Shown: positions 1,441 through 31,727 of the stretch, piece by piece
Layout: every line of letters starts with the position of its first letter
How positions within the stretch are numbered: position 1 is the first letter of the stretch
Assembly: GCA_016748015.1 (NCBI GenBank)
Contig: JAAOMT010000402.1
Span: 35,390 to 99,389, forward strand
Direction: 5' to 3'
From: Geosiphon pyriformis
Lineage: Eukaryota > Glomeromycota > Glomeromycetes > Archaeosporales > Geosiphonaceae
Length of the DNA: 64,000 nt
Translations under genes and position numbers: made by a program
The notes under the pieces: generated by a model
What the model saw: the letters and a program-made list of their open reading frames with translations, nothing else
Told to the model about the DNA's origin: nothing
The model's database searches: none

Positions 1441-1457
1441 TCTTGAAAAGAGCTCGA

Positions 1458-3127
1458 ATGATAAACCTATTTCTCATAATTCTTGTTTTTTTACAAAACG
1501 ATGCGATTCTTGTTTCTTCCTATTTCTCGCCATCTCCTCGGCTGGCCCATATAGCTTCTCTAATTGATAAGAGAATTTATTTCGTTGGCGGAACAATAAA
1601 TTTGATTGATTATGCAATTGATAATGCATACCTAGATCTTCCTCAAAATTTTTCCACTAATTCACCCGCTTTTTATGAACTTGAAACATTACCCAGATCT
1701 CTAAATATATCCTTCACATCAGCTGAGGTGGTAAAAACCAAAAATATAACTGAAGTTATTGTATTTGATGGATATGTAAGTTTCTTAAGTCGAACTTTAA
1801 TTATTAAAATACGTAGTTTTAATGCTCAAAAAAAAATTATTTTTCAAGAGGCTCGATCCCAAGGAGTATTATATTTATGCTTATAAAACAGCTCAAAATA
1901 AGCTCACATGGTTTCCAAATAATGATGCTCAAACGGGAAATCCAGGGGCAAAGAGTTATATTAATACAGTAATTGATAAAAAAGGAAGAATATATTTTTG
2001 GGGAGGGACTCGGAATTTTACTCACCTTGAGGATAAAGCCATGTATATATATGATACAAACTCTACATCCTGGACTAAAATTGAGCCAAAGAATTCTCCT
2101 TCACCAAGGCATTCTTATACTGCCACATTATTACCAGATGGACGCATTATTTTTATTGGTGGGGTTGGCCATTTTTATCCAAATCCAGAAGCAGATCTGA
2201 GTGCGGTAATTTGCAATCTAAAGCTCGAGGGAAATTTATTATGAGTTCTTAAATTTTTGATTTTTTATATAGATCTTAATTTTTAATATCAATGGAAAGC
2301 CTGAGGATCCATGGTCTTATGAGGTTATTTAATATAAAAATATTAAATTAAATTTTTTTAATTTTGATCACACTAACTTTGGTAAAAAATATAAACAGTC
2401 AACAAAAAGCGTCGTTGCTCTAGGATCTAGGAGGGGACATACAGCAATCCTTGGTAATTTAATAATTGATTGTAAATTTTTATTAATTGAATTTTTCTTT
2501 AATATCATTAAAACTATTTAGCTGCTGATGAATACAATATCATAATTTATGGAGGTCATGACAACTTCACTCGTCCAGCTTATCCTCTCATGGTTTTAGA
2601 TACAAAAACATTTACGTGGTCAGTGCCAATTGTAGAATCTCTTCCTAACGATTTATCTGTCCTTTCTTATCATACCGCTACAAGATATCAAAACTTGATG
2701 ATTATTGCATTTGGTAAGTCTTCTTAATGCGATACTTTTAATTTCTGCAATTCAAATTTTATAATAATATGTTTGCAATATAGGGGCTCATAATTTGACA
2801 AATCAAGTGTATAATTCGAGTAAAGAAATAAGAATATTCGATATATCTAACGGGACTTTTAAGTGGCTACAAAATTATGTAGCTCCATTAACTGTAATCG
2901 ACTCTCTACCAAAAAATCCGAAAAATTTAGGACTTATTATTGGAGTCCCTCTTGCTTCAATTGGTTTAATATTTTTGGGATTAGCTATTATAGTTATTTT
3001 ATATCGTCGTCGTTTAACAAAGACTAATAATAATGAAGGAAGCACGACAAACAACCAAGTAATCCAAAATTCAGGATTTCATATTAAAGGGAACACAACA
3101 AACAATCAAGTAATCGAAAATCCATGA
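1458..3127 (+). pseudogene. Kelch-repeat single-pass membrane protein, copy 1 (frameshifted)
   Basis: The start is the ATG at 1458 (MINLFLIILVFLQN...), which opens a hydrophobic signal peptide shared by all three copies. Kelch-type blades follow (SPSPRLAHIASL...YFVGG, IYFWGG, SPRHSYTATLLPDGRIIFIGG, RGHTAIL...IIIYGG). Then come a hydrophobic helix (LIIGVPLASIGLIFLGLAI), an RRR stop-transfer and an Asn/Thr-rich tail with NTTNNQ repeats. Two 3' introns are clear, 2454-2521 and 2714-2783, and both join in frame. A probable intron 2324-2398 is weaker. The reading frame changes by one base near the A-run at 1829-1837, and the stop at 2242-2244 lies before the next recognisable coding block. Probably a surface kelch/galactose-oxidase-like protein gene that has decayed, unless the A-run is a sequencing error. 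Confidence 0.75.
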
Positions 3128-3780
3128 GTTTAGTCACATTTATCAATGGCAATACCAAATATAATTTTTCAAAAATTTATGAAATTCTTAAAAAAGACTG
3201 AAAAAAAGTATTAAGACTGAATTTACTATTAAGAAACGTAATTAATTATATTTTAATTGACCTTCCGATTGAAACCGCGCTCGGCTAGCTGAGGGTTAAA
3301 TGATCGTCAGTTACCCCATATACATGTACCATAAGATTGGTTTCATAAAGATAAATTCACCTCTGAATTCTGTTAAGTTTTTATTATAAACCCGATTGAC
3401 AAGGCAAATTCATTTCAATTTAATAACAGCTAAAACGAATACAGCTAAAAATTATATCTAATGAAAAGCTTTAATTTATTTAGGTGAATCATTTGATTTT
3501 TTGCATAGCTATTTTTTGGCCCAATCCATGGTTAGTAAAATTGCTTGGAGTTCAAAATTAGATTCCCATCAACTACATATGAGTGAAAAAACTTTATCCA
3601 TTCTAATTAATTCCAAAACCGATGATAAAGAAAAATATGGCAATATACATTTCTTTTAGATGGTTATTTGTAGATGAAAAACAGGAAATATCTTTTATTT
3701 CTTAATAAACACAACGGAAATAGAAATATCTAAAGCATATTTGCTTCAAAAGATAATCTTGAATTCATCAATGGTCACAT
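3128..3780. other. 3' flank shared with the other kelch copies
   Basis: No gene is seen. The stretch around 3235-3320 recurs after copy 2 (7237-7314) and, inverted, after copy 3 (near 26760-26860). Positions 3360-3450 match 26650-26730 inverted. From about 3440 the sequence instead resembles the region upstream of the CAAX-peptide copy at 19622-19753 (20540-20640, inverted), so a boundary between two repeat families lies here. Confidence 0.55.
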
Positions 3781-4224
3781 TTAATTTACATAGTATAGAA
3801 TGAAAAAAAATAATCAAACTTAGCGTAAGGCTTTGAGCATTGCTCTTGCTATAATAATCTCACGGTTTTCGAACTCTGCTTTCAGCATGTTACTTAATGT
3901 AAAGCTGATATACAGTGTATATAGTGTATACATTGTAAAAAACCTTTCAAAAGCTGAATTGTATCATATTCATGTTTAATATTATATGTTATTCATAAAA
4001 TGCCTTCTCTAATCCTTCTTTAATGGATGAAAGCCAATATGTCTTTTGATCTCCTCGGGCATTGTTTAAGTATTTTAACAATGCATCTGTCAATCAATAA
4101 TTTAAAAAATAAAAAATTCGGCATATTATTTGTGATTTCCTATCGATTTTCGCTTTTTAACATTCTGTTTAAGTTATTATTGTTTCTAATGATAGATGTT
4201 ATTGTGAAAGCTATGATGTTTTGC

Positions 4225-4230
4225 TATAAA
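4225..4230 (+). promoter_or_regulatory. TATA box of CAAX-peptide copy A
   Basis: TATAAA lies in the shared context TTGCTATAAAACTGG, 106 bp before the ATG at 4331. The same box stands at nearly the same distance before all five copies. An open frame (4027-4269) runs across it, but that frame is not conserved in the other copies. Confidence 0.6.
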
Positions 4231-4330
4231 ACTGGAAGTGCTTTCCCAATTTCTTTTCATTCAATCTAACTAAATAACAAAGGGAAAAGCAAAGCAATAA
4301 CATTTAAATTAAATCAAATAATTTGAAGAA

Positions 4331-4458
4331 ATGCAACCAACAACCAATAATCAATCCTTCAAGCCCTCTCAATTATCGTTCCCGGTAACGGGTCTATTAA
4401 AGGACCAACCGGTGACCCTGACGACGGTAGTGGTACTGGCCAATGCTCGATCATGTAA
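4331..4458 (+). pseudogene. CAAX-peptide gene, copy A (4-base deletion)
   Basis: Homologous to the intact 43-codon genes at 17417, 19622, 22316 and 24545. The ATG and first codons (MQPTTNNQS) are intact. Compared with the copy at 24545, four bases are missing about 27 bases after the ATG. The start frame therefore runs out of register and ends at a TAG past 4458. The downstream frame still encodes the conserved tail GPTGDPDDGSGTGQCSIM and its TAA at 4456-4458. Its 3' part (about 4412-4495) is nearly identical to the copy at 24545, which suggests recombination between them. As read it cannot make the CAAX peptide from this ATG. Confidence 0.7.
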
Positions 4459-4691
4459 AGTCGAATATTATTGGCATTAGCAATTCACCTCTCCAATCCA
4501 TCATCGGCAACAATTTATTATCAGCCGAAATTTATAAAAGATATGGCCATTCCTTCTGATTATACTTTTTTAAGAAGAACTTTAGAATTTTATCTAAATT
4601 AATACAAAACTAAATTTAGACTTTGCACAGGATCATTTAACCTTTAATCATGAATAATTCAATTTTTTTAGAAATATTTCGAATTTTGCAG

Positions 4692-4750
4692 GCTATTCTT
4701 GTATGGGATCTGGTTGCACAGCATTATTCATTTTCAATGGTGTGTGTAGG
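4692..4750 (+). other. Exon-like Cys-containing segment (uncertain)
   Basis: After a TTTTGCAG acceptor-like sequence an open stretch reads YSCMGSGCTALF and ends at a GTGTAG/GTATTT donor-like site. A related segment, also after TTTTGCAG, lies at 20694-20743 and reads YSCDDCYHMAII. The shared acceptor and cysteines may mark a small exon or simply a duplicated repeat. No start codon or partner exon was found. Confidence 0.15.
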
Positions 4751-5397
4751 TATTTATTCCCGCATCACTTTCATATTCATTTAGATTGAAAATAGTAATG
4801 ACAATGGGAAACATAATATAACTTTAGAGTTAAATTAATTCCACACTATAATACATTTGTCATTGTTAGAACTTTTCTAGTTAGTTTTTTAGTGAAAATT
4901 TTATTTAACAAATAATATGAGAAGGGGTTTAAATTCAAATCCAAAAATAATTATTGAAAGGTCAAACTGATCGGGATCTAAACCTTTAAAAGCCTTTGTA
5001 CATGCATAAACAATGATTTTTGATGATCGATTCAATTCATTGATAGCGATCTTTCCATAAAACTAAATTTTCTATAAAACGCTGGGACCAGTCTACTAAG
5101 TATAGCATCACCTTCAAGTATCTATGGTCATATGCTTTATTAATAAAAAAATATTAGAAATAATCTAAAATTAATTTTAATTCTTAAGAAAAGAATTTTC
5201 TAAACCAGAAGGCAAACTTGCTTAAAAATTAGTAAAAGAAACCATTCGCGTAACCAAATATGCTTTACAATCATTAAGTGTTATCAAAGAGAATAGATAC
5301 TTATTAAAAAATTCAGTTTTACAACTTTTTTATAAAAAGCTTCAACCTTTTTGACCATTATTAAACCTAATATACCATTTTCTTGAAAAAAGGTCAA

Positions 5398-7120
5398 ATG
5401 ATAAACCTATTTCTTATCATTCTTGTTTTATTACAAAACAATGCGATCCTTGTATCGTCCAATTTCACGCCATCCCCTCGGTGGGGCCATACAGCTTCTC
5501 TAATTGATAACAGAATTTATTTGGTTAGCGGAGGGATATTTCATAGTTATGCAGTTGATAACGCATACTTGGATCTATCTCAAAATTTCTCCACTGATTC
5601 GCCCGCGTTTTATGAATTTGAGACATTACCCAAAATCTTTAAACGTGTCTTACGCATCAGCAGAGATAGTAAAAACTAAAGATAAAACTGAAGTAATTGT
5701 ATTTGCGGGAGATGTAAGTTTCTTAAGTTTAGAACTTTATTTGTTAAAATACGCAGTTTTGATGCTCAAAAGATTTTTTTTAAAGTCGATAGATCCAAAG
5801 GAGTATATTTACACTTATAAATTCGCTCAAAATAAGCTCACCTGGTTTAGAAATAGTGATAATAAGTCGGGAAATTCAGAGGGCAAGGACAGAGATTGAT
5901 ACAGTTATTGATGAAAAAGGAAAAATATATTTTTGGGGAGGAATTCGAAATAACGTTTATATGAATAAAAAAATGTATATATATGATACAAACTCTACAT
6001 CCTGGACTCAAATCACACCATTGAATTGTCCTTTACCAAGGTTTTCTTATACTGCCACATTATTACCAGATGGACGCATTATTTATATTGGTGGATCTAG
6101 TGGTTCTTATCCAGATCCAGAAGCAGATCTGAGTGCGGTAATTTGCAATCTAAAGCTCGAGGGAAATTTATTATGAGTTCTTAAATTTTTGATTTTTTAT
6201 ATAGATCTTAATTTTTAATATCAATGGAAAGCCTGAGGATCCATGGTCTTATGAGGTTATTTAATATAAAAATATTAAATTAAATTTTTTTAATTTTGAT
6301 GACACTAACTTTGGGTTAAAAATATAAACAGTCAGCAAAAAGCGTCGTTGCTCTAGGATCTAGGAGGGGACATACAGCAATCCTTGGTAATTTAATAATT
6401 GATTGTAAATTTTTATTAATTGAATTTTTCTTTAATATCATTAAAACTATTTAGCTGCTGATGAATACAATATCATAATTTATGGAGGTCATGACAACTT
6501 CACTCGTCCAGCTTATCCTCTCATGGTTTTAGATACAAAAACATTTACGTGGTCAGTGCCAATTGTAGAATCTCTTCCTAACAATTTATCTGTCCTTTCT
6601 TATCATACCGCTACAAGATATCAAAACTTGATGATTATTGCATTTGGTAAGTCTGCTTATTGCGATACTTTTAATTTCCGCAATTCAAATCTTATAATAA
6701 TATATTTGCAATATAGGGGCTCATAACTTGACAGATCAAGTGTATAATCCGAGTAAAGAAATAAGAATATTCGATATATCTAACGGGACTTTTAAGTGGC
6801 TACAAAATTATGTAGCTCCATTAATGCTCACGAAAATCACCAAAGCTCCTACACCTTCCACTGAAATTAACGTAACTCAAACAGCTACCGCTACCGCTGT
6901 ACTAAAAAACTCGAAAAATTCAGGACTTATTATTGGAGTCTCTATTGGTTCAATTATTTTAATATTTTTAGGATTAGCTATTATAGTTATTTTATATCGT
7001 CGTCGTTTAACAAAGACTAATAATAATGAAGGAAGCACGACAAACAACCAATTAATCCAAAATCCAGGATTTCATATTCAAGGGAACACAACAAACAACC
7101 AAGTAATCGAAAATCCATGA
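5398..7120 (+). pseudogene. Kelch-repeat single-pass membrane protein, copy 2 (frameshifted)
   Basis: Direct duplicate of the gene at 1458-3127, nearly identical over the last kilobase. The order is the same: signal peptide (MINLFLIILVLLQNNAILVSS), kelch blades (SPSPRWGHTASL, IYFWGG, FSYTATLLPDGRIIYIGG), TM helix and RRR, then an Asn-rich tail. The introns 6387-6454 and 6647-6716 match copy 1. It has two single-base frameshifts, an extra A near 5631-5636 and an extra G in the GGG at about 5880-5882. Both are inferred by comparison with the other copies. The juxtamembrane region differs from copy 1: it carries a longer Thr/Ala/Pro-rich insert (TEINVTQTATATAVL) between the last blade and the TM helix. 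Confidence 0.75.
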
Positions 7121-7319
7121 GTTTACCCACATTTATCAATGGCAGTACCAAATGTAATTTTTCAAAAAATTTATGAAATTCTTAAAAAGACACTGGAAAA
7201 AATATTAAGACGGCTTTTGAATTTATTATTAAGAAACGTAATTAATTATATTTTAATTGACCTACCGATTGAAACCGCTCTCGGCTAGCTGAAGGTTAAA
7301 AGATGGTCAGTTACCCATA

Positions 7320-14545: not shown

Positions 14546-15965
14546 TCAATAAAAATCTTCAAAAATAAAAAAAAAAACTAAACCTTTTAAAAAATTAATC
14601 ATTCGGAAAGTTAAAAGTCGACTTGAATAAACTGCTTTTGGATGAATATTGGGTGGTGATTTAGCTGTTTCCAATGTTTCTTTTACGAGTTTATCTGCTT
14701 CGGAAAACTGTAAATACTCAGTTGTAGAAGAGTAATTATTAAAACGTCCAAGATCATAAAGTCTCAATCTAACTTGAGTAACAGCAGGACGATTCGATGG
14801 AATACTATCCCAACATTCTTCTATTAGTTCAGCAAGACAAGGTGGAATATGAAAAGTGATTTCAGGTCTAATACCATTTAAAATATCTATGACAAGTTTG
14901 GAGTCATGAGGACGATCATGAAAAGGAGGCTTTCCTGTTGCCAATTCCCATAATAACATTCCGAAACTATAAATATCACCAGCTTTATCGAACTCTTCAC
15001 CTCGTAAAACTTCAGGTGGTATGTATGGAATTACTCCAAATATTCCTTTTTCTGCTAATTTCTTGTTAGCAGGTTGACATAATCCGAGGTCTGAAACATT
15101 TGCAAATTCTCCATTGGCCAGGCGATAAATTAGAATGTTACCAGAGTGTAGGTCACGATGAACTAAACCAGCAGAATGAACTGTGATAAGACCTGACGCA
15201 ATTCCTGAAGCTATTCTCAACCTATCAGACCAATAGCTAGAATAAAAATTTGATGATAGATAATCTCGCATATCTCCATGTTCGGCAAATTCCATTACAA
15301 ATCCGTAATCAAGTGTTTCCGGGTTTTGAGTGATCCCAATAACATCAGAAATACCAATCACAAATTCGGGGTTATTTGCCATTATAGAACTTTGAATATT
15401 TATCTATTAAGAGACACCCCCCCCCCCGTAAAAATTTTTATCAAGTTCAAAAATTAAAAAAATATAAAAAGATCAAATTTTCAATGAAAAATTACTCAAT
15501 TACCTTTTTAAAGAGTTCATCCCCCTGTCTTGAATCATTCATAAATTTTACTGCAACATTTATCGATCCATTTCTTTTAAATTTCGTTTCACCATGGTGC
15601 TTTAAAGTCTCGAAATCAATCATTCCATCAATCCATGTTGCTTTATAAAAAATACCAAAACCTCCTTGGGCAATATAGGAAATATCTGTCAAACGTTCAT
15701 ATGGAATCCATTCATAGTGATGAATCTCATTGTAGAGGTTGGGATTATAAATTGGATTTTTGATTATCTCGTCAATTGCTTGATTTCCACTTGAAAAATC
15801 TTTATATAGATTTTGAAAAATTATGATTTTACATGTCGTGCAATCATTGTATCTATTATATCTCATGCTCAATTTGCATTTTTTACATTTATTACAATTA
15901 TGAGGCTTTTCTGGTCGAGTTCTCTTGCATCGAAATTTTTTTATTGATGAAATCAATAAACCCAT
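14546..15965 (-). CDS. TKL-type protein kinase with N-terminal Cys cluster
   Basis: Exon 1 is 15504-15965 and exon 2 is 14546-15403. The intron 15404-15503 (GTAATT...TAG) joins in phase 0, giving about 439 residues. The N-terminus has paired cysteines (CNKCKKCKL...CTTC), probably a small zinc ribbon. The kinase domain is complete: glycine loop AQGGFGIFY, VAVKF lysine, catalytic loop HRDLHSGN, DLG in place of DFG, PPE in place of APE, SFGMLLWE, and the distal SNRP arginine. It is likely an active Ser/Thr or dual-specificity kinase of the large TKL group expanded in Rhizophagus. The last residues (FRMINFLKGLVFFFIFEDFY) read into A/T-rich DNA, so a further small exon may replace that end. The intron carries a C-run (about 15416-15427). 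Confidence 0.88.
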
Positions 15966-17084: not shown

Positions 17085-17416
17085 GAAACCAAGTCAAATA
17101 TAACGACAATAAAAAATTTAGTAAACAACATTGCACTAATGCTAAATATATATAATTAAGATTCAAAATAATATCTATATACTTTGGTTGTAAATAGTTT
17201 TAATAACTTTTCTTTTGTTTTTCATTATTAAAAGTTAAATAATCATGTAAAGAGCCTAAATTAGTATTATATTAATTTAGATAAAATTCTAAAGTTCCCC
17301 TTGAAAAAGTATAAATTAGAAGGAATGGCTATGACTTTTATAAATTTCGGTCGATAATAAATTGTTGACGGTGATGGATTGAAGAGGAGAATTATTATTG
17401 TGGATAAAATGTAACT

Positions 17417-17548
17417 TTACATAATCGAGCATTGGCCGGTACCACTACCGTCGTCTGGGTCACCGGTTGGTCCTTTAATAGACCCGTTACCCGGAGCGAT
17501 AATTGAGAGGGGATTAAAGGACGATTGATTGTTGGTTGTTGGTTGCAT
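17417..17548 (-). CDS. CAAX-box peptide, candidate lipopeptide pheromone precursor (copy B)
   Basis: An intact single-exon ORF of 43 residues, ATG (17546-17548) to TAA. It begins MQPTTNNQSS, has no signal peptide or TM segment, is Gly/Pro/Asp-rich in the second half and ends GTGQCSIM. CSIM is a canonical CAAX box; with Met in the last place it is a predicted farnesyltransferase substrate, as in prelamin A. The peptide is identical to copies C and E. It differs from C at 12 codons and from E at 6, all synonymous, so the protein is under purifying selection while the DNA drifts. A TATA box lies about 103 bp upstream. Size, lack of a signal sequence, CAAX end and multicopy state match fungal a-factor-like precursors. 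Another small prenylated protein is possible. The ORF is real with high confidence; the pheromone role is inference. Confidence 0.82.
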   Translation of the reverse strand: MQPTTNNQSSFNPLSIIAPGNGSIKGPTGDPDDGSGTGQCSIM

Positions 17549-17650
17549 TTTTTCAAATTATTTGATTTACTTTTAACGTTATTGTTTTGCTTTTTGTCTT
17601 TGTTATTTCAGTGAGATTGAGGGAAAAGAAATTGGGAAAGCACCACCAGT

Positions 17651-17656
17651 TTTATA
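17651..17656 (-). promoter_or_regulatory. TATA box of CAAX-peptide copy B
   Basis: TATAAA on the minus strand in the context TTGCTATAAAACTGG, 103 bp from the start codon. It is conserved in all five copies together with a downstream AACAAAG/AAAGCAAAACAATAAC leader. Confidence 0.65.
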
Positions 17657-19621
17657 GCAAAACATCATAGTCTTCACGCTAAAATTAAGTATTAGAAACA
17701 ATACTAAATAAATCAGAATAATAAAATGCAAAAAATGTGACTAATAATAAGTTGCGTTTATTGTTCTTTTTAATCATTATTTCGATGGATGCATTGTTAA
17801 GCTATCTCAACAATGCCCCAAATATTTAAAACAAAAAATTATTTATTTGATCATCAGTCAAAAAAGGTTGGAGATGGAGCATTATTCTTTGATATCATAC
17901 CCCCTATTTAATAAAACTATAGTACGGTAATGGTACAAATTCAGCCATTAAGGAGATTGCCTATGTGTTTATCTTTAGTTATGCATTAATTCATAAAACC
18001 GAAAACAGGATTTTCTTAAGAACAATGCTAAAAGCATTGCTTTAATATTTGATTATTCAGTTCCTAATAATCACTTGACGCTATGTATCACTAAAATTCA
18101 AATAGATTTCATTCTTGATAAATTAAGATTGTGTTTTTGGGAGCAAAATATCCTTATATTCCTAATTTTTTAGATGCAAATAAGAGAGTTTGCTATTTTT
18201 CTGGTGTAAAACAGCAGTCTATGAAGAAATGAATTTACCGTATTGTTCTTTGTTGGTCAAGTTTGGAAATTAATCGGAATTGATAAATTTTAATTAATTA
18301 ATTAATGTCAACTACTAACCATTTTGCTACATATGAATTTTGAGCTGAGAATACTTATACGGAAATTAATCTTGAAAATTACAAACTTTTTATTAGATCT
18401 AATTCTGTGGAACCACAGTATGTGTAAATATTTTTAAATCATTACTACCAAGTATTTGATGGTAAATTTTGCTTGTAAAATCAAGATTAAGTTTAGCAAA
18501 CAGGGAAAGCCGGAGAATTGAATAGGTTTTTTCCAGTTTGGAATTTGCTAACTAGCTTAATAAACTGCAAGATGAATTGAACTATTTTTCTCAGAACAAA
18601 ATCTTTAAATGAAAAAATAAATATCTTTCTATTTAAATTTAAAAATTACTCAATTATTTTGTAAATTTCAATAATTCCTATGAAATTTTTTGAGAATTTA
18701 TTCAATTCAATTTTTCTGGCTAAATCGATACTTAGTTTCCAAATTTCCAAATTTTTGGCTTTGAGCATTATTAAATAAAGGTCAATGTCACTTCAAAATC
18801 TTCTCTCTTTAAATATCTCACTTTTAAAGGTAGTAACTTTGTATTGTGATTATTTTGATCAAGCAATATTTTTGAATAAAAAATTGTTTCATAATGAAGA
18901 TGCCTATTGTAAGTTTTATTCAAATGGCTACTCTTGAAATCTTCAAACAAATTATACATAAGCTAGTAATAAAATTATTTTATTCACATCTCTTGCAAAA
19001 ATATTACATGACTATTTCCCAGTTTTAGGCAATCAGTATCGTATAAAAATTTATTTTATAACATTTTATTTGTATTGATATTAAAATCTTCGCCCAATTT
19101 TTGAATTGGAACTAATCATAAAATAACTTTTTGTATAACCCAAAATTAAATAATTTACTGAATCAAAACACAGTATAAAAGTTTGTTTCAATCATTAAAA
19201 TATTGTTTCTGCCATTTTAAGAAATTATCCTTTAATTTCAAGCCATGGTTCAAAGATATTTATAGAAGACCTGAATAACTTTCTTTATTGGTGATAAAAT
19301 TTTTGAAAAAAAACTTGCTTTTTCCAAATTAGCTATTTTTTGTGCTATTTTTTATTGGTAGATTAATATTATATTATATAAAAACAAGTCATGATATAAA
19401 ATTATTTAAAAATCTAGTCAAAATACATTGCCCTAAATGCTAATATATAATTAAGATTAAAACAAGGAACGAGAAATTCTCCTAATAATGTATATATTTG
19501 AAAGGTTAGGCAACTATGTAAAGAGTTTAAATTCGGCAATAAACCGGAGGTAACGGCCTTAATTCGGTTGATAGTAATTCGGTGACGGTGAGGAGGATCT
19601 TTAATGCGACTAATATCGAAT

Positions 19622-19753
19622 TTACATAATTGAGCATTGACCGGTACCGCTACCATCATCTGGATCACCGGTTGGTCCTTTAATAGAGCCATTGCCCGGA
19701 GCGATAATTGAGAGGGGATTAAAGGAAGATTGATTATTAGTTGTTGGTTGCAT
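19622..19753 (-). CDS. CAAX-box peptide, candidate lipopeptide pheromone precursor (copy C)
   Basis: A 43-residue ORF, ATG (19751-19753) to TAA, ending in CSIM. The protein is identical to copies B and E despite 12 synonymous codon differences from B (for example ACC/ACT, TCG/TCT, GGG/GGC, GAC/GAT three times, TCG/TCA). The 5' leader and TATA box are conserved. The flanks (19400-20650) resemble copy A's flanks at 3440-4560 more than copy B's, so C and A descend from one sub-lineage of the repeat. A longer frame in another register (19414-19761) is a shadow and is not conserved. Confidence 0.82.
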   Translation of the reverse strand: MQPTTNNQSSFNPLSIIAPGNGSIKGPTGDPDDGSGTGQCSIM

Positions 19754-19855
19754 TTCTTCAAATTGTTTGATTTACTTTAAATGTTATTGCTTTGATTTTT
19801 TCTCTTTGTTATTTAGTTAGATTGAATGAAAAAAATTTGGGAAAGCACTCCCAAT

Positions 19856-19861
19856 TTTATA
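19856..19861 (-). promoter_or_regulatory. TATA box of CAAX-peptide copy C
   Basis: TATAAA on the minus strand in TTGCTATAAAATTGG, 103 bp from the ATG, at the same place as in the other copies. Confidence 0.65.
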
Positions 19862-20290
19862 GCAAAACATCATAGCCTTCACGCTAACATCTATCATCAG
19901 AAACAATAGTAACTTAAACACAATGTTAAAAATGCAAAATCGATAGAAAATCATAAATAATATGTTGAATTTATTGTTTTTTAGATTATTGATTGACAGA
20001 TGCATTGTTAAGATATTTAAACAATGCTCAAAAGATCTAAAAAGCATATTGCGTTTCAAAATTCATTATCAATTAAAGAAGGATTAGAGAAGGCATTTTA
20101 TTCATAACATGTAATATTAAACATACATACGATACAATTCAGCCATTGAGAAGGTTTTTTACCATGTATACATTATATATTAGCTTTACATTAATTAACA
20201 TGCTGAAACCAGAGTTCGAAAAACGTGATATTTTTGCAAGAGTAATGCTCAAAGCCTTGCACTAAGTTTGATTATTCAATTTTTCTACCC

Positions 20291-21799
20291 TATGTAAATT
20301 AAATTTGACCATTGATGATTCAAAATTCTCTTTTTGAAGCAAATATGCTTTAGATATTTCTATTTTCATTGTGTTTATTCAGAAATAAAAGATATTTCCT
20401 GTTTTCCATCTACAAATAACCATCTATAAGAAATATATATCGTCATATTTTTCTTTATCATTCAATTTTGGAATTCATTGGAATGGATAAAATTTTTTCA
20501 TTCATACGTAGTTGATGGGAATATAATATTGGACTCCAAGCAATTTTACTAATCAAGGATTGGACCAAAAAATAGCTATGCAAAAAATCAATTGATTTAC
20601 TTAAATAAATTAAAGCTTTTCATTAGATATGATTTTCAGCTGTATTTATTTTTTTAGAAATATTTATAAAGATAATTTTGCAGGCTACTCTTGTGATGAT
20701 TGTTACCATATGGCAATAATATTTCATGTTTTGTGTTTGGTCATTGATATAGGTTTGAGAATGTTCTTGCTTGAAGTTAATTTCATTTGCAAAATGAAGA
20801 TTAATTATAATAAACAGGCGAATGAGGATGTATAAATTTTTAGTTTATAAAGCTAGCATCAAATTACAAGGATAAATTGCCTTAATTTTCTGAATTTTCT
20901 GTAGGGAATCAAATAAAACTTAATAAATTGTAGTTTCAAATACCTAAAAAGGCTATGAAAATACAAACATTAGATTTTTGTTTAACAATAATAAATATAA
21001 TAGATTATTTTATATTTTAAAATAATTATTATTTATTCTTGAAAAGTAATTAAAATTTTTAATAATATACAGTTTTTTAGATATTGTTTCTAAAATTGCA
21101 AAAATTTTATTATTGGGATTGAATATATCTTCAATTTTAATCAGACTAATATTATTTTTTTATTAATCATATGATTTTGGTTGAAACTGCATTTGTTTTT
21201 AAGCCTTATTATATTGTTAATTTTCAATTTTCTGTTTCTAACAATAAATTGATAAACTTCCACATAAAATAATATATGTAAATCAATTTTAAAAGTTTTT
21301 GAGTAAATGATTAAAAAAACTTAAATTTAGATTTGACTTCTTTGTTAATAACATAATTGTAAATTAGCACATAAATTCTAAATATTTGTTTATTATTTCA
21401 TATATTACAACCAATTTCATTATATTTTAAATCAATAATCTGTTTTTTGCGTGTTGTATCTATATGTTTTTGAAAAATCGTTTATTTGGCAACTTTTAAG
21501 ATACATTAAAGTAAGAAAAAGTAGCCAAGTATAAATGCCAATGACATTGAAAAATTTTATATTTTTTATTAATATGTATGGCATATCCAATTAGGGTGAT
21601 TCAGGAAATAAATAATTCAAAACGTTTCTTTAAAACAAATTTCATAAATTGTTATTGTTACCAAGGAAACTAGAAGGCTTTTTAATTTGCATTAAAGAAA
21701 TTTCAATTCCAATCTCTAAAATATTTTTTGGTTCGGAATATTCAAAAAATACTTCTAGTCATAAATTTCAAATTCAAAGTTCTTTTATTTTTTTTCCTA
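20291..21799. other. Centre of the palindrome, no gene seen
   Basis: AT-rich spacer around the axis of the inverted repeat. The left part (20290-20640) still resembles 3440-3780. An open frame at 20629-20835 begins inside this repeat and contains the exon-like YSCDDCYHM segment, but it has no recognisable family. Nothing else is supported. Confidence 0.5.
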
Positions 21800-22208
21800 T
21801 CACACAAGAATAGAACAATCAATATTTTTATTATTTTCTGTAAAAAATTCTCATTAATACAAAGGTGCCGAGAATTATGAATTGGTGGACACCTGATATA
21901 TAATGTACAAATGTAAAAAACCTTCTCAATTGCGGGATTTGTACCGTATTTATGTTTAATATTATATGCTATTAAAAACTATGCCTTCTCTAATTTTTCT
22001 TTAACTGATAATCAATTTTGAAAGCTAATATGCTTTCAGATCTTTTGGGGCATTTTTTAATATCTTAAAACTGCATCTGTCAATAAATAAATGAAAGAAC
22101 AATAAATTTAACAAATTATTTGTAATTTTCTATCGAGTTTTGCTTTTTAAACTTATGATCAAGTTATTATTGTTTCTAATTTTTGATGTTAGGATTAAAC
22201 TGTCTTGC

Positions 22209-22214
22209 TATAAA
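22209..22214 (+). promoter_or_regulatory. TATA box of CAAX-peptide copy D
   Basis: TATAAA in CTTGCTATAAAACTAAAAG, 107 bp before the ATG at 22316. The box survives although the surrounding flank has diverged more than in the other copies. Confidence 0.62.
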
Positions 22215-22315
22215 ACTAAAAGTGCTTCCCCAATTTCTTTTCATTCAATCTAACTAAAATAACAAAGAGAAAAGCAAAACAATAACATTTAAAGTAAATC
22301 AAATAATTTGAAGAA

Positions 22316-22447
22316 ATGCAACAAACAACCAATGATCAATCTTCCTTTAATTTTCTCTCAATTATCACTCCAGGTAATGCCTCTATTAAAGGACCAACCG
22401 GTGACCCAGACGATGGTAGCGGTACCCGTCAATGCTCAATTATGTAA
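22316..22447 (+). CDS. CAAX-box peptide, diverged variant (copy D)
   Basis: An intact 43-residue ORF with the same length and the same CSIM end. It differs from the common peptide at six places: P3Q, N7D, P13F, A18T, G22A and G38R. The block SIKGPTGDPDDGSGT and the QCSIM end are unchanged. Five of the six changes lie in the first 22 residues, the part that would be removed if this is a processed precursor. G38R places a basic residue two positions before the prenylated Cys. It may be a second peptide type or a copy under weaker constraint. Confidence 0.75.
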   Translation: MQQTTNDQSSFNFLSIITPGNASIKGPTGDPDDGSGTRQCSIM

Positions 22448-23238
22448 AGTCAGTTATTATTGACATTAGTCATCCTCCTCACCGTTACCAAATTACTATC
22501 AACCGAGATTTGCAAAGCTTAAGGCTGTTACCTCCGTTTTATGTTGAATTTGAACCCTTTACATGATTACCTAGCCTTCAAATATACATGTCATTAGGGG
22601 AATTTCTCTTTCACTGTTTTAATCTTAATTATACATTAGCATTTAGTGCAATGTAGTTTACAATATTATTAAATAATTTTATATTATGACTTGTTTTATA
22701 AAATATAATTAATCTACGAAATAGATATAAAATAATCCCGTATCAAACTTAATCAAAATAACACAAAAAAGATATCTACTCTGGAAAAAGGCAAATATTT
22801 TTTTCATTAACTTTTTTTGGATTTATTAACAATAAATAAAGCTATTCAGGCTTTCTATAAATATCTTTTAACTATAGCTTGAAATTCAAAGGTATTTTCT
22901 CAATATGGCAAAAACAATGTTTTTTTGATTGAAACAAACTTTTATACTGTGTTTTAATTTAGTATATCTATTATGTAGAATTTTTAATCGAAATTGATTT
23001 ATTTATTTTGAAGTTTTCGTAAAAAAATCTGCGGCATTTTATCATTGTAGAAAAGTTTCCTCAACAAGAAAGATAGTTTCGGTATGCGTGATAAAAGATA
23101 TTGTACAGACAAATCAAACTTGGTAGAGAAATAGACTGTTATATAGATATTGTTTACCTAAAACTAGTAAATACTCATGTAATATCTTTGCAAAAAATTT
23201 GAATAAAGTGATTCGATTACTAGCTTAGGTATAATTTT

Positions 23239-23466
23239 TTGAACATTTCACGAAAGAGCTATTTGAATGAAACCTACAATTGGTATCTTCTGTATGAAAC
23301 CACTTTTTTTAATTTTTCAACATCAACAACATTGCATGATCAAAATAATTACAATAGAATGTTCTCACCTTTAAAGTTGAGATATTTAAAAAGAGAAGAT
23401 TTTGAAATGACACTGACCTTATTTAATAATGATCAAACCCAGAAATATAAAGATTTAAAAATTTAG
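23239..23466 (+). other. Open frame shared by both palindrome arms, probably non-coding
   Basis: A frame of 75 codons (NISRKSYLNETYNWYLLYET...) has an inverted counterpart at 18771-18959 on the minus strand (SSHLNKTYNRHLHYETIFYSK). The two proteins differ at many positions and in length, so nothing shows selection on the protein. It is listed because it is the only other frame kept in both arms. Confidence 0.2.
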
Positions 23467-24436
23467 TATTTACAGACTAAGAATTTAATAGGTATCATTA
23501 ATATTTACAAAATAATTAAGTAATTTTTAAATTTAACTAGAAAAATTTTCATTTATTTATTTAAAGATTTTGGACATCTATATATTTTATTTTGTTCTTA
23601 AAAAAATAGATTAATTCATCTTTGGAATTTGCTAACTAGCTTAATAAAGAGCAAAGTGGAAAACCTATTCAATTCCTCGGCTTGCCCTGTTTACTAAGCC
23701 TAATCTTTGATATTTGCAAGCAAAATTAACCATCACAGGATCAGATCAAATGAAAAATTTAAGGTTCTCAAAATTAGCTTTCTGCACAAGTATTTGAATT
23801 AAAAAACTTATCATTTCTGATTAATTTCTAAACTTAACTAATAAAGGACAATATGATAAATTCATTTTTTCATAGACTGGTGTTTTACACTAGGAAAATA
23901 GCAAATCTTTTATTTTTCATCTAAAAATTAGAAATATAAGGATATTTTGCTCCCAAAAACACAATCTTAATTTATCAAGAATGAAATCTATTTGAATTTT
24001 AGTGATACATAGCGTCAAGTGATTATTAGGAACTGAATAATCAAATATTAAAGCAATGCTTTTAGCATTGTTCTTAAGAAAATCCTGTTTTCGGTTTTAT
24101 GAATTAATGCATAACTAAAGATAAACACATAGACAATCTCCTTAATGGCTGAATTTGTACCATTACCGTACCGTAGTTTTATTAAATAGGGGGTATGATA
24201 TCAAAGAATAATGCTCCATCTCCAACCTTTTTTGACTGATGATCAAATAAATAATTTTTTGTTTTAAATATTTGGGGCATTGTTGAGATAGCTTAACAAT
24301 GCATCTATCCAAATAATGATTAAAAAGAACAATAAATGCAACCTCTTATTAGTCACATTTTTTGCATTTTATCATTCTGATTCATTTAGTATTGTTTCTA
24401 ATACTTAATGTTAGCGTGAAGACTATGATGTTTTGC

Positions 24437-24442
24437 TATAAA
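24437..24442 (+). promoter_or_regulatory. TATA box of CAAX-peptide copy E
   Basis: TATAAA in TTGCTATAAAACTGGTGG, 108 bp before the ATG at 24545. Its flank is nearly identical to that of copy B. Confidence 0.65.
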
Positions 24443-24544
24443 ACTGGTGGTGCTTTCCCAATTTCTTTTCCCTCAAGCTCACTGAAATAACAAAGACAAA
24501 AAGCAAAACAATAACGTTAAAAGTAAATCAAATAATTTGAAAAA

Positions 24545-24676
24545 ATGCAACCAACAACCAACAATCAATCGTCCTTTAATCCCCTCTCAATTATCGCTCC
24601 GGGTAATGGCTCTATTAAAGGACCAACCGGTGACCCTGACGACGGTAGCGGTACTGGCCAATGCTCGATCATGTAA
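24545..24676 (+). CDS. CAAX-box peptide, candidate lipopeptide pheromone precursor (copy E)
   Basis: A 43-residue ORF identical in protein sequence to copies B and C, ending in CSIM. Its upstream flank and first two thirds match copy B, its inverted partner. The last part of the ORF and the sequence just after the stop (to about 24710) match copy A at 4412-4495 almost exactly. The gene is therefore a mosaic, consistent with gene conversion within the family. All six codon differences from copy B are synonymous. Confidence 0.82.
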   Translation: MQPTTNNQSSFNPLSIIAPGNGSIKGPTGDPDDGSGTGQCSIM

Positions 24677-25359
24677 AGTCGAATATTATTGGCATTAGCA
24701 ATTCACCTCTCCAAATTATCATCGTCAACAATTTATTATCAGCCGAAATTTATAAAAGATATGGCCATTCCTTCTGATTTATACTTTTTCAAGAGGAACT
24801 TTAGAATTTTATCTAAATTAATATAAAACTAAATTTAGACTTTGCACAGGATCATTTAACCTTTAATCATGAATAACAAAAGAAAAGTCATTAGGACTAT
24901 TCACAGCCAAAGTGTATAGATATTATTTCGAATTTTAATTATATATTTGTATTAATGTGATGTTGTTTGCTGAATTTTTTATTGCCGTTATATTGGACTT
25001 GCTTTCTAGTAAATTGCTTAATAATACAATAAATAATTATAATAATAGAAAAAAATTATAGGCTTTTAAATATTAAACTTGTATTTGCGATAAAGATAAC
25101 TCATAATAAATTGAAATAATTGTCACTGTTTTAAACTTTTGAGATGATATCTTTCGCCATAAAACAAAAATTTTTGGTAGATTTATACACTTACTGTCTT
25201 GTAAGAAAAAATTGGAAAAATATGAATCTACTAAGATTACGTTTGGTTTAACCATTTTTGGTAAGTTTTATGACAGTAAAATAGAAACAGAATATTAGGT
25301 AAGTCGCTGAGCTCTAAAAACGTATTAACTAATAGTTTTTTTTAAAACTTGTTTTTGAA

Positions 25360-26440
25360 ATGCCGACTTCAAAGCAAGAAATGCAAAGTCGTATTACATT
25401 TTTGGAAGCAAGAAATATGAAAGGCGAAAAAAATACAGAATAAAACGAATATACCCCTTTCTACAATCTATAATATCCTCAAAAAACTCAAAAAAAAGGA
25501 ACAATAAAGCATGCGAGTGGTAATGGTCAGCCAAGAAAGATTATGGGAAATTCTTTGAAAGTATTAGGGCAGATTCTTCGTAGAGATTCCTTAGTTTCGT
25601 CTAGATATTTAGCAATAAAGTTTACTAAGAAAAGAATAAATGTTTCTCATGTTACTATTCAAAACCCTATATCTAATCTTAATTATAAAAAAAGTCTTCC
25701 TAGAGCAACACCAATGCTGACTGAAGAGCATAAGCGAAAACGTGTAAAATGGGCCAAAAACACCTGAATTATTATTGGAAAAGAACAGTTTTTACTGATA
25801 AAACGTCTTTTCAACTTTTTCAAAACATAGTAAAATGTTGGCATAAAGGTACTCGACTAATTTGTTTTATGCCTAAAGATCAAACAAAAATTCTCGCATG
25901 GGGGGGTTTCTACGAAAAAGGAAAAACTAGTTTATTCTGTTTTGTTCAAATAATGAATGCTCAATTTTATATAGATATTCTTCGTAACCACTTACCTGAA
26001 ATTAGAGCAATGCTGGGGGATAATTGGCGATTCCAACAAGATAATAACCGCAAGAATACTAGCAAGCTTGCCAAAGAGTTTATTACTGAGAATACAACTG
26101 ATTTGTTGGGGTGGCCATCTAATAGTCCCGACTTAAACCCAATAGAAACCTTTGAGCTATTGTTAAAAAGAATGTAGAAAAAAGAATGTGTTAAAATCGT
26201 AGTGAATTAGAGAGATTTATTGGGGAAGAGTGGCAAGATATTTCTGAATCTATCTTAATTGGGTTAGTAGGATCAATAAGTGAAATGATAATTGAGACAA
26301 ATGGTGAAAGAATTTCCTATTAATTTTTTTTAATAAAATTATAATGGTATTTGACTTTCTAATAAAAGTTGTAATTTGGTACATTAGTTAAGACATAGTG
26401 ATTATTTTTATATTTCCGATTTTTTTTTTACCAGACTGTA
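25360..26440 (+). mobile_element. Tc1/mariner-type transposon, broken transposase
   Basis: Pieces of one transposase lie in several frames. A start (MPTSKQEMQSRITFLEARN) is followed after a frameshift by an HTH-like block (TNIPLSTIYNILKKLKKKG). Positions 25543-25767 hold the second DNA-binding part, and 25749-26177 hold the DDE domain with VFTDKTSFQLF, FQQDNNRKNTS and WPSNSPDLNPIE, the signature of Tc1-like enzymes. A one-base shift in an A-run at about 25755 separates the last two. The right end CCAGACTGTA (26431-26440) is a typical terminal-repeat end beside TA. The left end was not found. FTDK stands where the family usually has SDE, and several frameshifts are present, so the element is dead. 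Confidence 0.82.
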
Positions 26441-26963
26441 TTTTTGAGATTCAGATTAATCAACCACCATAAATAAACTGAAATTTATAAAACAAAATCA
26501 GCAAGTGTGAATTTTAACATTACAATCTGCTACTTTCCTCTTTAAAGATTTTTCAAACATAAAATACTGAAAATTTGTGCGCGAAGTGGTCAAAAAGATA
26601 CATAGAATTATTGTCATTGGTTTTAAAAATAGTAAATATCTGTCAAAACGGAATTCGTTTTAGCTGTTATTAAATTGAAATTTATTTGCCTTGTCAATCA
26701 GGTTTATAATAAAAACTTAACAGAATTCAGAGGTCAATTTATCTTTATGAAACCCATCTTATGGTACATGTATATGGGGTAATTGACCATCTTTTAACCT
26801 TAAGCTAGCGAGTGCAGTTTCAACCGGAATGCCAATTTATAATTAATTACGTTTCTTAATAGTAATTTCAAAGCCGTCTTGAAAATTGTTTTTCAGTTTC
26901 TTTCTAAGAATTTCATATAATTACATTAAGATTAACATTTTGTACTGTCATTGATAAATGTGG

Positions 26964-28514
26964 CTAAATTCTTGGATTTTTGATTGCTTGGTTGTTTGTT
27001 GTATTTCCTTGAATATTATTAGCCTTTGTTGAGCGGCGACGATATAAAATAAATACAAAAGCTGATCCTAAAAATATTAAACCAATTGAAGCAAGAGGGA
27101 CTCCAATAATAAGTGCTAAATTCTTCGGATTTTTTTGTGGAGCAGGAGTTACTGGAATTTCGTGGATTACAGTGGGGGTCAATGGAACTACATAATTTTG
27201 TAGCCACTTAAAAGCTCCATTAGTTATGTCGAATATTCTTATTTCCTTAGTCGGTTTGCTTTCTGTAGCTGTGGTATTATATTCCCCTATATTTCCAAAA
27301 AATATTATTATAAGATTTGAAATGCGGAAATTAAAAGTATCGCATTAAGAAGACTTACCAAATGCAATAATCATCAAGTTTTGATATCTTGTAGCGGTAT
27401 GATAAGAGAGCACAGAAATATTGTTAGGAAGAGATTCTACAATTGGTACTGACCATGTAAATGTTTTTGTAATTAAAAACCATTAGAGGATAAGACCCCC
27501 ATAAATTATGATATTGTATTCATCAGCAGCTAAACAAATATTAAATCATTTTAAAAAAAGTTAATTAATAAACATCTACAATTAATTATCAAATTACCAA
27601 GGATTGCTATATGTGCCATCCTATATCTTAGACTAACGACGTTTTTTGCCTCCTTTTTACATTAAATAACCTTGTAAGACCATAAATTCTCAGGCTTTTC
27701 GTTAATGTTAAAAATTAATATATATATATAAAATCAGATATTAAAGTATTTATAATAAATCTCGCTCGAACTTTTGATTGCAAATTACTCTACTCAAGTC
27801 TCCATCTGGATCTGGATAAGAATGGCCAAATTCACCAATATAAATAATGCGTCCATCTGGTAATAATGTGGCAGTATAAGAATTCCTTGGTGAAGGAGAA
27901 TTTAATGGAGTGATTTGAGTCCAGGATGTAGAGTTTGTATCATATATATACATTGTTCTATCCTCTGAGTAAGTATAATATTGAGGTCCTCTTCAAACAT
28001 ATATTCTTCTATTTTTATCAATTATTGTCTTAATATCTCTCCTTGCCTCTGAATTTTCAAATTGATTATGACTATTTGGAACCAGATAAGTTTATTTTAT
28101 AAGTATAAATATTATACTTTTTGGGACCTATCCACTTAAAAAAAATTCTTTTGAGCGTATTTTAGTATTGGATTTCTAAGCTTAAGAAATTTACATTTTC
28201 ATCAAATAAAATAACTTCAGATATATCTTTGGTTTCTACTACCTCAGTTGATAAATAAGATAGATTTGGAGAGTTGGGTAATGTCTCAAGTTCATAAAAT
28301 GCGGGCGAATCGATGGAGAAATTTCGAGAAAGATCTAAGTACATGTTATTACTTGCAAAAATTTCATTTGAACTCATTACCCCGCTAAAGAAATAAATTC
28401 TTTCATCAATTAGAGAAGCTATATGGGCCACCCGAGGAGATGGCGAGAAATAGGAAGAAATAAGGATCGCATCATTTTGTAATAAAACAAGTAATATAAG
28501 AAATAGGTTTATCA
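26964..28514 (-). pseudogene. Kelch-repeat single-pass membrane protein, copy 3 (decayed)
   Basis: Inverted third copy of the kelch gene. The start at 28514 opens a signal peptide (MINLFLILLVLLQNDAILISS). Kelch blades follow (PSPRVAHIASLIDERIYFFSG, NSYTATLLPDGRIIYIG), then a TM helix (LIIGVPLASIGLIFLGSAF) with RRR and an NTTNNQ tail. Breaks: an early stop at about 28162 after VNFLSLEIQY; a TGG-to-TGA change in the IYFWGG blade near 28000; and a deletion of about 20 bases in the YNIIIYGG blade near 27500, where copies 1 and 2 read HDNFTRPAY. Homology continues past both gene ends (26640-28700), so it is a whole duplicated unit. Confidence 0.75.
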
Positions 28515-28699
28515 TTTGGGCTTTCTTGAGTGTTAAAGCAGATAACATATTAGGTTCATAATAATGAAGGTGGAAATGATTTAGACTTTTTATAATTAAA
28601 ACTTAACGAGGTTGTAAACATTGTGAAAATTTCTAGTTTCTTAATATGGCATCTATTCTCTTTGATTACCCATTTTTGGATCTTGGTGATTGTAAAAAA

Positions 28700-29631: not shown

Positions 29632-31727
29632 ATGCATTCTTCAACTTCATCAATTCAAAAGAAAACAATACCTCTCGAACGGCTTTAAGGAGCATTCATA
29701 GTCATCAAAGAAAATTTGGCCCTTTTTCCAGCTAGTGAACATTCAACAAAAGTTGCTAACTTGGTGAAAGAATATCTTGTGCATAATCAGAAAACACCTT
29801 AAGACTTATTCAATTGCTTGAATGATAAAAGTTCAAAGCGTTCGATAGACAATATTTTGCTCGGCTTTTCTTTAGAACATGGAATTGGAACTATTCCTAA
29901 TTTAACAAAAACATTTTTAGAATATCAGAAAGCAGCGAATGCAGAAGATTCTCTTGGACAATTCTTCTTAGGTTACTGCTATAGCTATGGCATTGGTGCT
30001 TCACAAGATCGAAAAAAAGCATTTGAACTCTTTTCAAAAGCAGCAGAGGCAGGAAATCCTTTTGCACAAAACAATCTCGGATGGTGTTATCTAAATGGAA
30101 TAGGAACAACGAAAAATGAGAAAAAAGCATTTGATCTCTTTTCAAAAGTAGCAGAGGCGGGACATTTAATGGCACAAAACAATCTTGGACTTTGTTATGA
30201 AGATGGGGGAACGACGAAAAACCTCTGAAAAAGCAGCAGAGGCAAATAACTTAAGTTATGGTAACAATTTTTCTAATTTGAATGCTCGCAACCTTACTTT
30301 AATGGTTCAAGATGATTTAGAACATTTCATGTTACAATTCCTAAATCGAGGTTTAAGACTCTCGGATGACTCTAAAGGGAATTTGTCGATTTTGAAGCTT
30401 TCTTCGACCAGCTTTTTGATGAATTCAAGTGTTTTAAATGTGGTAGCATGGGCATAATTATTACTGGATTTCTTATATGTCCATTTTGTGACACTGATAA
30501 TATTAATAATGATATATTTGAATCCAGATTACCGGAATGTCTGGAATGCTATCGCACATTAAAAGATCCACTTTGGTGTAATTTTTGTGAATCATTACAA
30601 TTTTCAAAGACTTGGGGTACATGGAATAGTGGAAATCATAATATTAATCACTATATAAAATATACACAAAGCGCTTCCGAAAGCTGTAGGGAATATTTAG
30701 AATGGATTTCTCCTGACGAGATGATATTTTTAGATCAGGTGGGAATGGGAGGATTTGGTGTTGTTAAAGAAGGCAGATGGGAGAGAGGCAAAATTCTTTT
30801 TTGGGACAAGAAAACTCAAAAGCATGAACGAGGCGGTGTTACAAAAGCTGCTTTGAAATATTTTAAAAATAGTCAAAATCTTAGAATATATCAATTTAAA
30901 TGAAGTATTTTCTTTTAAGAATATTGTTAAATTTTTATTAGCCTTAATTCTTATTCTAACACGAGAAAACATCTTAATTTAGTTCATTGCTCATCTTCGT
31001 TGTGCCTTTTGCAAATACATCCTTGAATTCTATGGAATCACAAAAGATCTTATAAACAATGAATTCGTTATGGTTTTACCATTTGCAGAACATGAGGACC
31101 TTAGAGCTATTCTAAAGATGAACAAGGATACTTTTACTTGATATATGTTTCTTCGTATTCTTTTTCAAGTCGCTGGTGGCCTACGATTTATACATGACTC
31201 AAAACTGGTGCATGGGGACTTACATCCTGGAAATATCCTTGTTTTGAAATTAAACCCCTTAAAATTAGTCATTTCCGATCTTGGATTTTGTTGTCCTGCC
31301 GATTATGCTTCACAGTCTGGGAAAATATATTGCGTTCTTGAGTATCTCGCACCCGAGATTTGCAAGGGAGCTCAAAATACTAAGTATAGCGATATATACA
31401 GCTTTGCTATAGTTTCCTGTGAAATTATTTCAGGAGAAAGACCTTTGAATAATACGGACCTTATTTACGATCAATTTGATGTGATTGATGGAAAGCGTCC
31501 TATAATCAAAAAACATACACCTCAATGTATTCAGGAAATGATTCAAAAAAATTGGCAATATAATCCATATTATCGTGATAGTGCAGATAACTGTAACTTA
31601 AAATGAACCTGTCCGTGAAAAAGACTTAATTCTGAAGAGATACAAGATGGTAACCATGACATGTCAAGATATAAAAGTCAATTAATCTCGCAATCTAGAA
31701 AAAAGGAATCTGCTTCTTTTACACATG
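29632..31727 (+). pseudogene. Sel1-repeat / zinc-ribbon / kinase gene, copy 1 (decayed)
   Basis: In order: an N-terminal helical part (IVIKENLAL...VANLVKEYL); three to four Sel1 repeats (LGYCYSYGIGASQDRKKAFELFSKAAEAG and repeats, 29818-30228); a zinc-ribbon-like block with CPFCDTD, CLEC and CNFCE (30448-30620); then the kinase with glycine loop GMGGFGVV, ALKYF lysine, catalytic loop HGDLHPGN, DLGF and APE (to 31606). Breaks: in-frame TAA codons in the N-terminal part, a frameshift in the last Sel1 repeat near 30210, and TGA at 31139-31141 where copy 2 has TGG GAT. The HRD arginine is Gly in both copies, so it is ancestral to the pair. An intron of roughly 100 bases separates the N- and C-lobes near 30900-30990. 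Confidence 0.75.

Follow-up and report, generated by a model that had tools for sequence, protein, structure and literature searches.

A family of 43-codon genes in the genome assembly of Geosiphon pyriformis probably encodes, judging from sequence, the precursor of a farnesylated signaling peptide of the fungal a-factor kind. Four intact members and one decayed copy lie in the window, by which we mean the whole stretch of 64,000 nucleotides analysed here (contig JAAOMT010000402.1, positions 35,390 to 99,389). A sequence-only reading of this DNA had claimed four such genes and a decayed copy near 4331; all five are where it placed them, the decayed copy occupying 4333-4455. Three of the four intact window genes encode the same protein, and all four end in CSIM followed by the stop codon. 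Short precursors that have no leader and end in a CaaX box are typical of a-type pheromones. The gene family is under strong constraint, and the same genome holds a STE3-type receptor gene and genes for farnesylation and methylation of CaaX proteins.

The candidate bears on a disputed question. Arbuscular mycorrhizal fungi (AMF) are often considered anciently asexual; sex has never been seen in the group, and AMF mating is disputed (PMC7490403, PMC11414155). A 2013 study reported STE3 and STE6 in AMF and no peptide pheromone gene; the method of its pheromone search also missed known genes of Ustilago maydis (PMC3834313). Mucoromycotina have been reported to be without the pheromone recognition genes of Dikarya (PMC5705715), and in co-inoculated isolates of Rhizophagus irregularis putative mating genes were induced and no upregulated pheromone gene was described as found (PMC7490403). 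With a concrete candidate for the ligand missing in 2013, the question of AMF mating comes down to a single synthetic peptide and its presumed receptor; the genes would also be markers for partner sensing or anastomosis. In the literature searched, the strings MQPTTNNQS, SIKGPTGDP and IKGPTGDPDDG have no printed occurrence, and searches for AMF pheromone precursors, judged mostly from listings, turned up no AMF a-factor gene.

A constrained multicopy gene family

The assembly (124,688,122 bases, or 124.7 Mb, in 406 contigs) was searched with the 43-residue protein at E <= 10, and all matching places were retrieved. There are 37, of which 33 are intact 43-codon open reading frames (ORFs) distributed over 12 contigs: 11 on C380, five each on C241 and C216, three on C283, two on C318, and one each on C254, C160, C394, C353, C402, C401 and C356. 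These intact copies comprise 8 protein versions and 29 DNA versions; 24 of them encode one identical protein. The CSIM terminus is present in all 33 and precedes a stop at 35 of the 37 places. The four non-intact places are the decayed window copy (L034), a tail-only copy (L037), a degenerate copy (L035) and a weak remnant (L036). In L037 (C393:605211-605276) the open frame has kept no more than the C-terminal part, NIKGPTSDPDDDSNTSQCSIM, and the usual N-terminus is missing; it could be a remnant or, alternatively, a downstream exon. The copy number is approximate because a single locus may be represented more than once in alternative versions (L008 and L009, the latter at a contig end, are 98% identical over 2.9 kb) and because others lie near contig ends, the final copies on C380 and C241 being within about 1.5 kb of them.

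The 43-codon ORFs are genuine protein genes under strong purifying selection, all within one genome. Across the 528 pairs formed by the intact copies, pS is 0.387 and pN is 0.017, a pN/pS of 0.044 that drops to 0.020 without the two most divergent copies, L032 and L033. Pairs with identical proteins differ at up to 73% of synonymous sites: between L005 and L024, 22 of about 30 such sites have changed and no amino acid has. Variable columns number 9, 12 and 33 at codon positions 1, 2 and 3 (of 44 each; 33 copies), and amino-acid differences average 0.030 in the frame of the ORF versus 0.112-0.291 in the other five. Stops interrupt four of these five frames in every one of the 33 copies; the remaining frame has a stop in five copies. 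CaaX residues 40-43 are invariant throughout, with synonymous variation in three of their four codons; elsewhere, amino-acid changes occur at nine of codons 1-21 and six of codons 22-40. Some codons, among them 24-26 and 29, are invariant at the third position as well (32 copies tabulated). A constrained family of this extent is not a product of chance.

Sequence is conserved chiefly in the ORF and in a short promoter before it. We profiled mean pairwise DNA identity in 30-base bins over 32 copies, with L033, L034 and L037 excluded. Identity is 0.87-0.91 across most of the ORF and 0.81 at its end; upstream it is 0.75-0.77 at -160 to -71 and 0.51 at -70 to -41. Past about 280 bases upstream and about 290 bases after the ATG it is mostly below 0.5, the exceptions being 0.51 at -370 and 0.64 at +350. 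A CTATAAAAC box is visible in the aligned upstream regions. Of the 33 intact copies, 32 have TATAAA between -103 and -147, versus 63 of 407 background windows; with L034 and L037 added the count is 33 of 35, L030 and L037 being the copies without it. An ATTGTT/AACAAT element, which we take to resemble HMG-box sites, is present at -135 to -160 in 28 of 33 copies versus 91 of 1,120 background windows of 31 bases, and recurs as a dyad farther upstream in 17 of the 33. By its promoter, nearly every copy would be its own transcription unit.

The upstream stretch travels with the gene. A 240-base query taken from one copy gave 26 distinct places among the matches listed (29 rows, self included), of which 23 adjoin intact copies and two adjoin the degenerate copies L034 and L035; it thereby reached 23 of the 33 intact copies, the remaining ten not being among the best candidates listed. 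A lone promoter and leader remnant without an ORF stands at the last of the 26 places, C394:182215 (L083 1-170, C394:182150).

Peptide features and pheromone machinery

With 43 residues and a CSIM terminus, the product has the two features used to define a-type pheromone precursors, namely a length of at most 100 amino acids and a C-terminal CaaX or CPAX box (PMC10569646). It has no hydrophobic leader, in agreement with the absence of a signal peptide claimed at first reading: its N-terminus is polar, and the maximum 11-residue Kyte-Doolittle mean is 1.05. Solved structures yielded a single chance-level match to the 43-residue peptide (E 1.2). Searches for relatives in GTDB and IMG/VR produced 60 and 12 pattern matches, none confirmed, as expected of collections that are not of fungi.

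Among the closest known systems is the a-factor of Saccharomyces cerevisiae (MFA1/MFA2), whose precursors are likewise short, begin with MQP, carry no signal peptide and end in a CaaX box. The Mfa1 and Mfa2 precursor sequences used for comparison were not found in print. Aligned to Mfa1 without gaps at offset 0, the peptide shares 11 identities, including MQP, N21, IKG at 24-26 and DP at 30-31. Among 20,000 shuffles, 27 reached the local score against Mfa1 and 1 the number of identities; the likeness to Mfa2 is weaker, with 771 and 99 shuffles reaching the same measures. The IKG-xxx-DP motif is present in 26 of 200,000 shuffles. Most shuffles thus fall short of the resemblance in MQP and IKG-xxx-DP singled out by the sequence-only reading. 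This comparison was post hoc, selected after the motif was seen, and the eight residues DDGSGTGQ between DP and the cysteine have no counterpart in yeast; for both reasons we put homology to yeast a-factor forward as no more than a possibility. The two also differ in that our peptide is hydrophilic, ends in CSIM and has more than 30 gene copies, whereas the yeast box is CVIA. We know of no other yeast or ascomycete a-factor with the IKG-xxx-DP motif. The mature yeast peptide is YIIKGVFWDPAC-farnesyl-OMe (PMC7035247).

Other fungal systems offer partial parallels. The putative a-factors of Leotiomycetes are 45-64 residues long with an S/T-rich N-terminus and CaaX variants that include CSIM in a few species; they too were found without sequence homology to known a-factors (PMC10569646). 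Unlike them, the peptide described here has no GY motif, comes from another fungal lineage and is encoded by more than 30 copies in one genome. The h-type HPP1 of Hypocreales has a precursor of about 5 kDa with a polar-aliphatic CPAX box and a terminal Met (PMC3068285); our peptide shares the size class and a polar-aliphatic box ending in Met, and it differs from h-type precursors in having neither repeated (L/I)GC(S/T)VM motifs nor dibasic Kex2-type sites. Pheromone-like peptides have also been proposed in R. irregularis, as KEX2-processed repeat proteins with STE13 signatures, of alpha type, with a signal peptide and repeated motifs (PMC6339444). In contrast to these, the precursor here is leaderless, has a CaaX box and contains one peptide; the words farnesyl, CAAX and a-factor are absent from the main text of that paper (PMC6339444).

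Small CaaX precursors paired with STE3-type receptors are also known from basidiomycetes, often several per genome (PF08015). Here PF08015 has no match, no copy was found on the STE3 contig, and nearly one invariant peptide is encoded, compared with the many specificities of basidiomycetes.

The sequence-only reading had proposed an a-factor-like pheromone system and named Ste3, Ram1/Ram2, Ste14, Rce1 and Ste6 genes as its expected company. Much of this holds: beside the constrained gene family, there are genes for a STE3-type receptor, farnesyltransferase (FTase) and ICMT. STE3 is a single locus on C303 with two exon matches (E 1.3e-41 and 3.6e-19). Its splice model, picked for the longest frame, has 526 residues and no stop; the first exon matches Pfam STE3 at 3.5e-44 and has no match among solved structures. 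STE2 gave no match in the genome search, a result that is uninformative since the controls were silent. Prenyltransferase beta subunits are found at three loci (C320, C282 and C227), and alpha-type prenyltransferase repeats at two. The best matches of the C320 exon among solved structures are FTase beta entries (E 3.9e-15), and the C282 exon matches GGTase-I beta. The best ICMT match is at C80 (E 3.0e-26), and two others, at different places, are weaker; by eye, the C80 gene is Ste14-type. An M48 protease at C306 matches Ste24p (E 3.7e-27) and a CAAX prenyl protease 1 homolog (E 1.8e-29), which we take to be human ZMPSTE24. The prenylation and CaaX-processing enzymes serve other proteins too. 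M16 proteases account for five matches at three loci, and the ABC transporter domain PF00664, common to ABCB and ABCC transporters, for 36; this domain cannot tell Ste6 from other ABC transporters.

Taken together, these genes allow a pathway to be proposed. The 43-residue peptide is predicted to be farnesylated at Cys40; a CaaX protease, for which we propose Ste24, would remove SIM, and methylation would follow. The N-terminal extension of about 21 residues would be trimmed, and the product would leave the cell by a Ste6-type ABC transporter and be sensed by Ste3 on the same or neighboring hyphae. We infer expression, export, Ste3 binding and every step from farnesylation onward. The assembly holds both the ligand copies and the presumed receptor, and a single identical peptide is the product of 24 of the 33 intact copies; we therefore favor a self or species-wide signal: the likeliest use is in hyphal homing, anastomosis or mating competence, and not as a mating-type-specific cue. 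More tentatively, and with somewhat less confidence than doubt, we suggest that AMF may own a dedicated farnesylated peptide pheromone whose genes have been amplified to over 30 copies and whose receptor would be the Ste3 of the same genome. Such a pheromone would act within the individual or across the species as a cue for fusing hyphae or for cryptic mating, and it might be what is left of an a-factor system older than the split from Dikarya.

Competing explanations

Several observations weigh against a pheromone. Rce1, the protease named in the sequence-only reading, was not found in the genome in a search positive in 11 of 14 control genomes (Ste24 was found instead); Ste6 was not singled out among the 36 PF00664 matches, and none of the five M16 matches was assigned to Axl1. 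The STE3 contig C303 is without any copy of the 43-codon gene. In an hmmscan of two of the peptides there was no Pfam match up to E 10, PF08015 included, and a genome search with PF08015 was also without a match, though its controls were silent. The putative mature peptide is hydrophilic, and constraint extends to residues 1-21, the putative leader. From the literature, R. irregularis was argued in 2024 to be likely asexual (PMC11414155), and the ligand of an AMF mating response could be another one, because R. irregularis has the alpha-type KEX2-processed precursors described above (PMC6339444).

Some of these points would suit a farnesylated, membrane-anchored microprotein that acts inside the cell, for example as a regulator of G-protein or Ras signaling, and is never exported. 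The CaaX box is not exclusive to pheromones: seven Leotiomycetes have 2 to 12 short CaaX proteins per genome, of which one family was kept as an a-factor candidate and most were not kept as pheromones (PMC10569646). Constraint on the N-terminal 21 residues is not needed for a discarded leader, and no ABC transporter was singled out as Ste6. We nevertheless regard a purely intracellular role as unlikely, if a serious contender, given 43 residues without a Pfam domain, over 30 genes with almost a single product, which would fit the dosage of a secreted ligand, and a STE3 gene for which the 2013 study found no peptide ligand gene in AMF (PMC3834313). An exported farnesylated peptide might instead address a target other than Ste3, for example in competing fungi, in endobacteria or in the plant host. 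An apparent life as a root symbiont would suit this, but the genome also encodes a fungal STE3 receptor, with which peptides of this sort usually pair, and we consider such a target improbable.

Two further readings deny the peptide a function, and both were rejected. That the ORF has no function and is carried along by a DNA repeat that is mobile or was recently amplified might be argued from the placement of copies in inverted and direct repeats, from identities of 94-99% over 1-3 kb in some of the six copy pairs compared, and from a DDE_3 transposase-like fragment nearby (25734-26177). The codon pattern and the decay of the flanks make this very improbable: the protein is constant despite large synonymous divergence, such conservation is confined to the ORF frame, and identity peaks in the ORF and is much lower in most bins past about 280 bases upstream and 290 after the ATG. 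The upstream stretch lies almost always beside a gene copy (it is without an ORF at 1 of the 26 places listed), unlike a transposon carrying a passenger. The other reading, that conservation reflects an RNA structure or another nucleic-acid element and not a protein, could draw on the few codons that are invariant at third positions. It is barely credible when variation falls mostly at third positions, the folding energy of one copy equals that of its shuffles (z 0.22) and the window has no Rfam match. We return to a precursor of a-factor kind as the preferred explanation for the family, whose window members are set out below.

Layout of the window

The window ORFs sit in an inverted repeat and in related repeat arms, and direct repeats are also present (Table 1).

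Table 1. Peptide genes, TATAAA boxes and inverted repeat arms in the window (positions are those of the window)
Feature	Position	Strand	Remarks
Intact 43-codon CaaX ORF, consensus protein	24545..24676	+	copy L023
Intact 43-codon CaaX ORF, divergent	22316..22447	+	copy L032; 6 of 43 residues off consensus
Intact 43-codon CaaX ORF, consensus protein	19622..19753	-	copy L024
Intact 43-codon CaaX ORF, consensus protein	17417..17548	-	copy L021
Decayed copy	4333..4455	+	copy L034; one in-frame TAA, N-terminal part disrupted
TATAAA	24437..24442	+	108 bases upstream of ATG at 24545
TATAAA	22209..22214	+	107 bases upstream of ATG at 22316
TATAAA	19856..19861	-	108 bases upstream of ATG at 19753
TATAAA	17651..17656	-	108 bases upstream of ATG at 17548
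Inverted repeat, left arm	17258..18170		with one copy
Inverted repeat, right arm	23923..24835		95% complementary to left arm

A repeated unit at 1446-7191 and 26653-28527, in direct and inverted copies, flanks the peptide genes; kelch-like fragments are visible in it by eye, and the one scanned had no Pfam match. The DDE_3 transposase-like open frame is on the forward strand near the palindrome. The sequence is AT-rich, which together with the protein kinase genes listed next would point to Glomeromycotina. A run of N at about 33.9-34.3 kb may be an assembly gap. Protein kinase genes (PK_Tyr_Ser-Thr/Pkinase), of a kind expanded in Glomeromycotina, lie at 14546-15403 (-), 31142-31606 (+), 42084-43232 (+) and 45780-46421 (+); two of these genes belong to blocks that repeat at a distance of about 14.8 kb.

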